A stretch of DNA of 64,000 nucleotides from Flavobacteriaceae bacterium (lineage in GTDB: Bacteria; Bacteroidota; Bacteroidia; Flavobacteriales; Flavobacteriaceae), in contig JAKITQ010000002.1 of the NCBI GenBank assembly GCA_021647985.1, forward strand, positions 62,001-126,000, given 5' to 3'. A program made the position numbers and the translations under genes. The notes under the pieces were generated by a model. It saw only the letters and a list, made by a program, of their open reading frames with translations, did not search any database and was not told the DNA's origin. Shown here piece by piece: positions 28,403 through 30,588 of the stretch (its first letter is position 1; each line of letters starts with the position of its first letter).

Positions 28403-28957
28403 TTATTTGTTAGTAATGAGCTCTGCAAGTAATTTTTTGGCTCTAAGCAACTTAACTTTGATATTATTCATTGGTTCATCTAGTTTTTTTGCAATTTCTT
28501 TATAGCTCAACTCTTGAAAATATCGCAAATTTATAACTTCTTGATAATGAGGTTTAAGCTGTCTGATAAAGGCTTTTAATTGGGCGAGATTTTGTTCTTG
28601 TATCAATATGTCTGCAGGGGAAGGATCTTCATCAACAATTTTATGAATTTCAGGGTGGTGTTTAGTGATAGATATAGTTTCTGTTTTTTTCTTCCTTAAA
28701 TGATCAATATTAATATTGCTAGAAATAGTAAAAAGCCATGTTTTAAATTGATAATTCTCATCGAATGTAGCTATTTTATCAAAGGCTTTTGCAAAAGTTT
28801 TGATGGTAATATCTTCAGATTCATCTTCATTTTGGCATTTATTAAATTGAAAGTGATATACATCTTTCCAATATGTATTTAAAAGTAAATGAAAAGCCTT
28901 TTGATTGCCTTTTTTGGCTTGAATAATTAATAAAGCAATGTCTACTTTTTCACTCAT
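28403..28957 (-). CDS. RNA polymerase ECF-type sigma factor
   Basis: Sigma-70 family member of 184 aa with region 2 (about residues 22-90; DITIKTFAKAFDKI and YQFKTWLFTISSNINIDHLRKK) and region 4 (about 125-180; LKPHYQEVINLRYFQELSYKEIA). There is no adjacent anti-sigma gene, so control by a partner is unclear. It starts 7 bases after the glycosyltransferase stop and is followed by the NRAMP remnant, all in one direction. Confidence 0.92.
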   Translation of the reverse strand: MSEKVDIALLIIQAKKGNQKAFHLLLNTYWKDVYHFQFNKCQNEDESEDITIKTFAKAFDKIATFDENYQFKTWLFTISSNINIDHLRKKKTETISITKHHPEIHKIVDEDPSPADILIQEQNLAQLKAFIRQLKPHYQEVINLRYFQELSYKEIAKKLDEPMNNIKVKLLRAKKLLAELITNK

Positions 28958-28964
28958 TTAGAAA

Positions 28965-30068
28965 TCACCATTGGTTAGGTGGGCTAATAATATTTTTAAT
29001 ATAAATGTATAATTGTATAAATATAATAGAAATTTCAAATAATGGTGCGAAAATCACCAAATCTTTTTCGTGAAGCAGTCTTGCTGATTTACCTATAATA
29101 AGATACCAAACAATAAATCTAAAAAGAATTAATAGGATAGATAGGGCAGGGTTGATGTTAAAGATTATCAATAATACAGCTAAAAGCCAAAATAATAATT
29201 GCGATAAATAAAATAAACCCAGTAATATTTTATGAAAGTTTTTATAGTGATTTGCCGTAGTAATATGTCGGCTTTTTTGATGAATCCACTTTTTAAAACT
29301 TGTTTCTGGTTTAGAAATAGTAAAACTTTTGTTTGTAAAGCAGATAACTGTATTTTGTTTGGTAGAGACTTCCATAATAAACAGGTCGTCATCACCAGAA
29401 CTAATATGGGTATGATTATTAAACCCATTTACTTTTTTATACACACTCTTTTTATAAGCCATGTTTCTGCCCACTCCCATATAGGTATGTCCAATTTTTG
29501 CAAACGAAAAATATTGAATCGCAGTAAGTAAGGTTTCAAATCGAATCAATTTGTTGAGAAATGAATTTTTATTTTTTTGGTAAGCGCCATATCCTAAAAC
29601 AATCTCTTTGGTATCAGAAAAATAAGATGTTATTTCATTCACCCAATTGTTACTATTTGGTTGGCAATCTGCATCGGTTAAAATTAAATATTCATTTGTG
29701 GCTGCTGCTATACCTAGACTTAAAGCATTTTTTTTTCCTTTATTCTTTTTATCAGCGATAGATATTATCTGAACGGAAAGTTTATCTGAACTATAACTCG
29801 ATTTAAATGCTTGCATAACACTTAAAGAATCATCAGAAGAAGCGTCATTTACCAATACCAATTCAAAATTGCTGTAGTTTTGAGCCGCAATAGCCGGTAG
29901 GTGTTGTTTTAAATTTTCCGCTTCGTTTTTAGCGCAAATAATAATAGATACTGGGAGGAGTTGACATTCTCTTTTCTTTGTTTTTGAAAAAGAAAATTTT
30001 CCGAAAAGAAATAAATAAAAAAATGTTTGGATAATAATTACAAAACAAAATGAAATAAAAATTAACAT
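28965..30068 (-). CDS. Membrane glycosyltransferase family 2
   Basis: Protein of 367 aa: an N-terminal hydrophobic helix (residues 1-24), the GT-A domain with SIIICAKNEAENLKQHL, LVNDASSDDS and the LTDADCQPN DxD site, then SSGDDDLFIM and the QKSRH acceptor-site motif (QxxRW-type), and two or three C-terminal helices. Such proteins make or extend polysaccharide or lipid-linked sugars at the inner membrane. Substrate unknown. It is in a tight operon between the Cys-rich membrane protein (6 bases) and the sigma factor (7 bases). Confidence 0.9.
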   Translation of the reverse strand: MLIFISFCFVIIIQTFFYLFLFGKFSFSKTKKRECQLLPVSIIICAKNEAENLKQHLPAIAAQNYSNFELVLVNDASSDDSLSVMQAFKSSYSSDKLSVQIISIADKKNKGKKNALSLGIAAATNEYLILTDADCQPNSNNWVNEITSYFSDTKEIVLGYGAYQKNKNSFLNKLIRFETLLTAIQYFSFAKIGHTYMGVGRNMAYKKSVYKKVNGFNNHTHISSGDDDLFIMEVSTKQNTVICFTNKSFTISKPETSFKKWIHQKSRHITTANHYKNFHKILLGLFYLSQLLFWLLAVLLIIFNINPALSILLILFRFIVWYLIIGKSARLLHEKDLVIFAPLFEISIIFIQLYIYIKNIISPPNQW

Positions 30069-30074
30069 CTTGTT

Positions 30075-30284
30075 TTAAGATACTGTTTTGGCTTCCATAT
30101 TGTCCAAATTAGTAGAACAAGTTTCTTGTTTTCCACAACCACAAGTGATATTTTTTTCTTTCATTTTTACATTTTTACCAGAACAGGTTCCATCAAATAC
30201 ACCATCTTTTTTTGCCCAAATTTTTATTGCAATTCCGGCAAAACCTAAACCTAAGAGAACGATGCTTAATAAGAGTAGTTTCAT
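30075..30284 (-). CDS. Small Cys-rich single-pass membrane protein (NqrM/DUF539-like)
   Basis: 69 aa: one N-terminal transmembrane helix (LLLLSIVLLGLGFAGIAI), a short basic linker, then a cytosolic or periplasmic tail with Cys in GTCSGKN, CGCGKQ and ETCS. The layout (helix, KKDG, G-x-C-x-G, clustered Cys) resembles NqrM, the maturation factor that delivers iron to Na+-NQR, but the match is weak. The start lies at the end of the second 89-bp repeat, whose AAAATTTAGACAC spacer forms its leader. It begins the GT2-sigma operon. Confidence 0.65.
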   Translation of the reverse strand: MKLLLLSIVLLGLGFAGIAIKIWAKKDGVFDGTCSGKNVKMKEKNITCGCGKQETCSTNLDNMEAKTVS

Positions 30285-30459
30285 GTGTCTAAATTTTAAT
30301 TTTTAACAGGTGACACATGTTGTTCGCTATTAGTCATACCCAATTGTGTCAAAATTTGGTATGCTCGTTTCATGTGTCTAAATTTTAATTTTTTACGGGT
30401 GACACATGTTGTTCCCTATTAGTCATACCCATGTGTGTCAAAATTTGGTATGCTCGTTT
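30282..30459. repeat. Two tandem 89-bp units, 84 of 89 identical
   Basis: Unit A is 30282-30370 and unit B 30371-30459. They differ at five positions only, with no indel. On the minus strand each unit holds a 25-codon ORF plus a short spacer ending in AAAATTTAGACAC just before the next ATG. All five differences fall within the ORF; the spacer is identical. Confidence 0.92.
30296..30373 (-). CDS. Putative 25-aa microprotein, second tandem copy
   Basis: ATG 30373 to TAA 30298-30296. It differs from the first copy at residues 10 (Gln for His), 11 (Leu for Met) and 16 (Ser for Arg), plus two silent third-position changes. Its ATG is preceded by the same AAAATTTAGACAC spacer that precedes the NqrM-like gene ATG, so all three starts share ATGAAA and two share the leader. 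Not recognised as any known family; a leader peptide or a real small protein is possible. Confidence 0.45.
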   Translation of the reverse strand: MKRAYQILTQLGMTNSEQHVSPVKN

Positions 30460-30462
30460 CAT
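30385..30462 (-). CDS. Putative 25-aa microprotein, first tandem copy
   Basis: ATG 30462 (or 30465, which adds one Met) to TAA 30387-30385. The peptide begins MKRAYQILTH and ends VSPVKN; it is basic at both ends, with no transmembrane helix. A -7 box (TAACTTTG, 30498-30491) lies about 30 bases upstream, so this is the first ORF of the predicted transcript. The frame is intact in both copies despite five substitutions. Function unknown. Confidence 0.45.
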   Translation of the reverse strand: MKRAYQILTHMGMTNREQHVSPVKN

Positions 30463-30490
30463 CATATAAAAATGATATTAATATATACTG

Positions 30491-30498
30491 CAAAGTTA
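30491..30498 (-). promoter_or_regulatory. -7 box TAACTTTG for the microprotein-NqrM-like-GT2-sigma transcript
   Basis: Exact TAnnTTTG on the minus strand; no TTG at the expected upstream distance. Start would be near 30485, 20-25 bases before the first 25-codon ORF. Confidence 0.35.
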
Positions 30499-30588
30499 AT
30501 TCATTTAAAAATAAATTCACTTATTATTTATGTTTTTATTGTATAAATCAACGTTAAAATAAGCTTAAAACACAGGTGTTTCTAGGGT

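Follow-up and report, generated by a model that had tools for sequence, protein, structure and literature searches.

The described systems closest to the locus analysed here are the REP sequences with their TnpA_REP (RAYT) transposases, the class of elements known as palindrome-associated or MITE derivatives of IS200/IS605, the Rickettsia palindromic elements (RPEs), the Correia/NEMIS, ERIC and RUP MITEs and, on the side of translation, re-initiation leader ORFs. According to one published account, the known small bacterial mobile repeats lie mainly between genes, with some families in frame inside genes, and the classical MITEs are tabulated there as having TA termini, terminal inverted repeats and a target-site duplication (PMC2229807). 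RPEs have been recorded as fused in frame inside ORFs (PMC10969869, PMC2229807). The locus described below is of a known kind, a small non-autonomous mobile repeat, and what is new is its start-codon specificity.

We analysed a window of 64,000 nucleotides (the whole stretch of DNA under study) from contig JAKITQ010000002.1 of a Flavobacteriaceae bacterium. Two 89-bp direct repeats, also found by TRF, occupy positions 30278-30366 and 30367-30455 (+) and are 94% identical, differing at 5/89 positions. The preliminary description had reported two tandem 89-bp units, each with an intact 25-aa ORF on the minus strand, and this was exact. It was also right that the five differences amount to three amino-acid changes (Q10H, L11M and S16R) and two silent ones, and that each unit ends with a shared spacer, AAAATTTAGACAC, leading into the next ATGAAA, the last of which is the start of a 69-aa Cys-rich gene. 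Its NqrM-like label for that gene found no support from Pfam or NCBIfam. On the sequence comparisons given below, the units are very probably copies of a non-autonomous mobile element of the Flavobacteriaceae, about 90 nt long, that inserts at ATGAAA in the sense of the gene, mostly at start codons, and would pass translation on to the gene. The features of the locus, with the units in the register of the element, are as follows.

28403..28957, minus strand: ECF sigma factor gene, beyond the glycosyltransferase gene
28965..30068, minus strand: glycosyltransferase family 2 gene, downstream of the Cys-rich gene
30075..30284, minus strand: Cys-rich membrane protein gene, 69 aa, host of the insertion
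30279..30284, minus strand: target hexamer ATGAAA, native start of the Cys-rich gene, with the same start codon in relatives without the element
30282..30319, minus strand: predicted hairpin of copy 1 (-8.4 kcal/mol), in which CATGTGTC (30319-30312) pairs with GACACATG (30289-30282) and covers the gene ATG (30284-30282)
30285..30373, minus strand: element copy 1, 89 bp, adjoining the Cys-rich protein gene on its upstream side
30296..30373, minus strand: 25-codon ORF of copy 1, stop included, MKRAYQILTQLGMTNSEQHVSPVKN; the stop ends 11 nt before the ATG of the Cys-rich gene
30371..30408, minus strand: identical predicted hairpin in copy 2, over the ATG of copy 1
30374..30462, minus strand: element copy 2, 89 bp, 5' of copy 1's own ATGAAAC
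30385..30462, minus strand: 25-codon ORF of copy 2, MKRAYQILTHMGMTNREQHVSPVKN; the stop ends 11 nt before the ATG of copy 1
30490..30499, minus strand: probable native promoter -7 region, TTAACTTTGC, retained 5' of the insertion

Copy 1 begins with ATGAAACGAGCAT at 30373-30361, and its right end, GACAC, abuts the ATG of the Cys-rich gene. Copy 2 may have been inserted or duplicated before the ATGAAAC of copy 1; the ORF list starts its reading frame one codon further upstream, at an in-frame ATG. Motifs similar to TTAACTTTGC at 30490..30499, which we take to be a -7 promoter motif, are present upstream of the Cys-rich gene in relatives. Elsewhere, the window contains 7-nt tandem repeats, AAGTAGA in about 12 copies at 1903-1988 and AATACCA in 3.7 copies at 2009-2034.

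Searches of the source genome assembly (80 contigs, 86.6% complete) gave 39 matches by tblastn with the peptide, 52 with the DNA query, 69 with a covariance model at E<=1, and 47 with a degenerate left-end pattern as against 0 for the reversed control. Once matches had been merged (split ones included) and two weak model matches left out (C76:8830, E 0.10; C41:30573, E 0.40), the curated set comprised 67 dispersed copies. With 47 left-end matches against none for the reversed pattern, and with 67 curated copies, the repeat is far beyond chance. The element was present in 11/22 genomes of the genus, the source genome included, and our census of 125 copies combines the 67 of the source genome with 58 of 69 model matches in relatives, the 11 left out having E values of 0.18-0.88. 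For an independent family-wide set, public genomes were scanned for the 18-nt core, and a sample of the matches was listed, representing at least 113 loci. Among the matches listed, 115 exact motif matches fell in 113 loci and 108 were resolved as copies; the other seven were two chance matches (Zhouia and Photobacterium) and five divergent or damaged copies. The loci listed are nearly all named as Flavobacteriaceae or as unclassified Flavobacteriales/Bacteroidetes, the carrier genera among them including Lutibacter, Winogradskyella, Lacinutrix, Bizionia, Psychroserpens, Polaribacter, Kordia and others, and one MAG named Salinivirgaceae is among the true copies listed. In a phylum sample of 148 genomes, any motif matches outside the Flavobacteriaceae were single and had two mismatches. 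In another genus, three core motifs with 90-bp spacing and two mismatches each (G034:C18:87-286) probably form a three-fold tandem array of the element. Searches of open-licence PMC papers (preprints excluded), sequence strings included, brought up no description of the element.

Over 173 unique copies without large inserts, the majority sequence is ATGAAACGAGCATGTTAAAAATTTTATCACCCAAGGGAATGATTAATAGCGAACAGCATGTGACCATTAAAAAACAATAAATATAAACAC, followed by ATGAAA. Of the 125 census copies, 94 begin with ATGAAAC at the left and 111 are followed by ATGAAA at the right. Where the right flank is instead ATGAAT, ATGAAG, ATGAAC, ATGAGC or ATGGAA, the ATGAAAC left end is kept in 8 of the 12 copies, which assigns the left end to the element and makes the right hexamer its target; the insertions may, on these sequences, have duplicated a target site of up to ATGAA. 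If the element's own left end can serve as a target, this would explain the tandem copies, with 11/125 census copies facing another copy. No terminal inverted repeats were seen in the consensus, where the first 16 nt and the reverse complement of the last 16 nt agree at 4/16 positions. The triplet CAT occupies consensus positions 11-13 in 149/173 copies and 57-59 in 167/173. The first ORF has 5 codons in 28/52 copies of relatives and, among the matches listed, in 65/99 family-wide copies. No longer version with the same ends was found in the source genome, all 47 left ends falling in census copies of 83-146 nt, among which two have internal deletions and one (C16:123), where a longer element may lie, is without a recognisable right end. 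Apart from this, REP-like hairpins apparently sit inside the element, at two loop positions that recur (e.g. L017, L019, L026, L033, L091, L092, L096, L100 and L130-L136); two of them have the loop CTTGA in common and differ in their stems (CCCAA/TTGGG and CCCCGTA/TACGGGG), and others are CCTGCCTGCGGCAGGCAGG-like.

The copies lie in the sense of the downstream gene. In the census, an ORF of at least 50 aa starts exactly at the right hexamer in 95/125 copies (94 with ATG, 1 with GTG), the others being 11 tandem copies, 2 at contig ends and 17 in other settings. Among the matches listed, the 108 family-wide copies gave 90 with such an ORF at the right end, 4 in tandem, 2 at contig ends and 12 others. 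The right end is ATGAAA in 100/108 of these listed family-wide copies versus 88/319 element-free gene starts (taken, in the loci fetched, from ORFs of 150 aa or more that begin at their first ATG), and as AAA is the second codon in this fraction of element-free starts, ATGAAA is a true target. As a background, a simple ORF caller placed 15/129 of the ATGAAA sites in the window at gene starts, or 15/38 of those outside genes; even against 15/38, the start-codon excess of the copies had P values of 8.8e-21 and 1.1e-16. The youngest copies (at least 95% identical to the consensus) are at gene starts in 11/14 cases (P 0.003), so a loss of older copies from other places is not an easy explanation of the pattern. 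Start codons are a strong preference and not a rule, because 17/125 census copies and, among the matches listed, 12/108 family-wide copies have no clear gene at the right end, and some of these copies are intact (e.g. those on contigs C35 and C69).

Orthologous genes without the element show what the sites look like when empty. The Cys-rich orthologue is element-free and has the same start codon in 16/16 congeneric relatives (15 ATGAAA, one ATGAGA), as is the transaldolase gene in 19/19, starting at the same codon; coaD is element-free in 17/17, of which 10 share the start codon and 7 begin one codon earlier, on the upstream side. Three partial matches were left out of these counts (L070 for the Cys-rich gene, L336 for coaD and L358 for transaldolase). 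Upstream of coaD in one relative (G005), a sequence (L319) resembles by eye the right end of the element with the left part absent, and may be a decayed copy. In the left flanks of 186 insertions, A makes up 61-65% at -12/-11, with 60-65% at 99 element-free ATGAAA starts, and T at -1 is commoner in the insertion flanks (55% vs 35%). This A-rich native signature places the element downstream of the native initiation region and directly before the native start codon. Some insertions are older: a fadJ-like gene, 3-hydroxyacyl-CoA dehydrogenase-like by eye, with the start MKKRHIKKVAVVGSGIM, bears the element in three species (G006:C261, G016:C297 and G021:C564), which indicates that not every copy is recent and that some have been inherited. 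We take the hosted genes to include counterparts of coaD, transaldolase, lpd, pheT and cmk, and pheT, coaD and cmk are usually essential. High copy number, sharp ends, empty orthologous sites, the target preference and the native signature in the left flanks are shown by the sequences, and on these grounds the units are very probably a mobile element.

In the element, a CATGTG segment (CATGTGTC in the window subfamily) is complementary to the element end plus the gene ATG, and the start codon of the gene is accordingly predicted to be hidden. The predicted probability that the AUG is unpaired had medians of 0.03 in 34 long-ORF copies and 0.06 in 11 short-ORF copies of the source genome; in 90 family-wide copies among the matches listed it was 0.05, versus 0.46 at 54 native starts, and replacing the hairpin arm in 22 copies raised the predicted value to 0.77. 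In the common type the hairpin has little predicted stability (-3.2 kcal/mol), and it is stronger in the window subfamily (-8.4). In 39/42 long-ORF copies the ORF stop lies from 4 nt inside to 19 nt upstream of the gene AUG; stops occur near the gene AUG in all three frames of the AT-rich tail, and the position of the ORF stop could thus be incidental. The preliminary description had proposed a chain of leader peptides that couples translation of the downstream genes. The coupling is plausible, as modelled, for the long-ORF subfamily only, where the stop sits beside the predicted-hidden AUG, and a microprotein family, the other possibility raised there, was not supported. Adenines at -3, -6, -12 and -13 are reported, for F. 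johnsoniae, to favour initiation (PMC6847099). At -3 the consensus carries C instead of the favourable A. The A-rich tail of the element may act as a new initiation region.

Among the 173 unique copies, covariation exceeded that of shuffles at pairs 43-86 (T-A 97, C-G 44, T-G 14), 10-50 and 16-26. The pairs of the hairpin 57-62/88-93 are present in 93-99% of copies and nearly invariant, hence uninformative for covariation; with pair 43-86 the hairpin would form a pseudoknot, which we mention as a suggestion only, because the shuffles ignore relatedness. A consensus structure of 30 source-genome copies contained no pair with changes on both sides. A long P1 stem was considered as a general feature and dropped; it can be made out by eye in some divergent copies, few in number (G010, G014, G016, G021 and G007:C169), and in most copies the region is unpaired except for two base pairs. 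A riboswitch or other known RNA was likewise set aside, as Rfam gave no match in the window region and, at 8 further loci, one sRNA-model hit outside the element, whose 23.7 bits fell short of the threshold of 60.

Compared with the systems named at the outset, the element is similar to REP/TnpA_REP (RAYT) in being a short, high-copy, non-autonomous and structured repeat with Y1 genes in many of its carriers, but it is about 90 nt long, has the fixed target ATGAAA and is located at start codons, and the REP tags GTAG/CGTC are on neither strand of its consensus. It resembles the IS200/IS605 derivatives in lacking terminal inverted repeats, in having a fixed target on one side and in the possible guide pairing, whereas here the target is a start codon and strong subterminal hairpins at both ends were not seen; an autonomous element with the same ends was not found in the source genome. 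RPEs are likewise short mobile repeats touching coding genes and carrying an open frame, and two in-frame fusions occur here, but the element lies in front of the ORF and as a rule contributes nothing to the protein. In these two cases (G000:C20:11200-11334, L100; G018:C25:20436-20528, L041 and L073), the element reads on in frame into the host gene, and the predicted proteins, of 220 and 227 aa and lipoprotein-like by eye, have an N-terminal extension. Like the element, the Correia/NEMIS, ERIC and RUP MITEs are small, non-autonomous and located near genes, whose expression such repeats can alter, and classical MITEs differ from the element in that its ends are not complementary and its target is ATGAAA. 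In re-initiation leader ORFs, as here, a short ORF stops next to the following start codon and could unfold a hairpin that covers it; the difference is that this ORF is borne by a mobile element, precedes many unrelated genes and is conserved in neither length nor sequence. By prediction, an upstream ORF that stops near a sequestered gene AUG is found in the long-ORF subfamily only.

Several other readings of the repeat were weighed. That it is no more than a local tandem duplication is barely conceivable: the subfamily variants common to both window copies do allow that the pair itself was duplicated, but the source genome holds 67 dispersed copies. The preliminary description gave as one possibility a microprotein family, in which the peptide (or leader peptide) is selected and its dispersal is secondary. 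Frames of at least 22 codons are indeed open in most long-ORF copies of the source genome and survive several insertions. The substitutions, however, give no sign of selection on a protein. A codon-level test made initially on 55 copies, short-ORF types included, was repeated on the 42 long-ORF copies of the source genome, where 94 distinct substitutions are spread evenly over the codon positions (27/37/30), with no significant excess of synonymous changes (23 vs 20.6 expected, P 0.22) and no significant deficit of stop-creating ones (4 vs 6.7 expected, P 0.13). The frame is lost in most other copies, whose first ORF has 5 codons, and a peptide search of 60 genomes at E<=0.1 gave matches in 2/60, the source genome being one of them. 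Nor does the unit precede the orthologous Cys-rich gene in any of the 16 relatives, an outcome set in advance as refuting. On the substitution pattern, the loss of the frame elsewhere and the absence at orthologous genes we reject the microprotein, which is very unlikely to be the right reading; judged from the sequences, the peptide is a by-product of one subfamily.

A cis-regulatory RNA, such as a thermosensor or attenuator, kept before a regulon by selection and with the AUG hairpin as its switch, would account for the predicted sequestration of the AUG, for the covarying pairs 43-86, 10-50 and 16-26 and for copies that stand before one gene in several species. We consider it unlikely, since regulation has no need of the strong preference for AAA as second codon, the host genes are of mixed function (by eye), orthologous sites are empty, copies occur in tandem, and the Rfam searches returned nothing in the window region and one sub-threshold hit off the element among the 8 loci. 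Rather doubtful, too, is mobilisation in trans by a Y1 transposase (IS200/IS605 or RAYT) acting on single-stranded DNA, with the CAT triplets as guides for the ATG cleavage sites. In its favour, Y1_Tnp is present in 8/22 genomes of the genus, all 8 among the 11 carriers (P 0.0005), the ends are not complementary, the right end belongs to the target and the left end to the element, and the CAT triplets at 11-13 and 57-59, which vary little, would permit CAT/ATG pairing at both ends. Against it, 3 carriers in the genus are without Y1, and in a family sample of 199 genomes, nearly one per genus, Y1_Tnp was found in 9/13 genomes with at least two motif hits versus 83/199 overall (P 0.037), leaving four multi-hit genomes without it. 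Moreover, no cognate TnpA_REP flanked by copies was found, there being no convincing match beside the 11 genus Y1 loci (best match E 0.11) and none at E<=1 beside the 29 family loci, not all of which are from carrier genomes, and one Y1 gene sits between other palindromes. This gene, which is RAYT-like (L174, G000:C1:9734-10072), lies between ACCTTGTAGG/CCTTGCAGG palindromes and perhaps drives another REP family of the source genome.

We thus return to the mobile element that inserts at start codons. That translation passes from element to gene is something we infer from the predicted structures, and a possible course can be outlined. Initiation at the native site would now occur at the element's own ATG, and the ribosome would then read a short ORF, of 5 codons in most copies and about 25 in the window subfamily. 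The gene AUG, held in a hairpin with the internal CATGTG segment, would be reached by re-initiation or via the A-rich tail. In long-ORF copies, the ribosome would melt the hairpin and terminate next to the gene AUG, which would constitute translational coupling. Pairing between an internal CAT and the target ATG would be similar to that of guide and cleavage site in single-strand transposons. As a tentative possibility, the element could be a leader that homes on start codons: CAT-ATG pairing in single-stranded DNA or RNA would find the target, and its own 5' leader would let it colonise even essential genes, spreading a start-codon hairpin (and in one subfamily a coupling ORF) as self-propagating translational control.

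The mRNAs of this phylum are described, in work on F. johnsoniae initiation, as lacking Shine-Dalgarno sequences (PMC6847099). An element that aims at start codons and takes the place of the gene's initiation region has to allow the passage of ribosomes, and it therefore provides a natural experiment on initiation, in which the same leader is placed on up to dozens of genes per genome, while the sites are empty in sister species. An enzyme that mobilises the element and is specific for start codons is implied, and the annotated start regions and predicted small proteins of these genomes need care.
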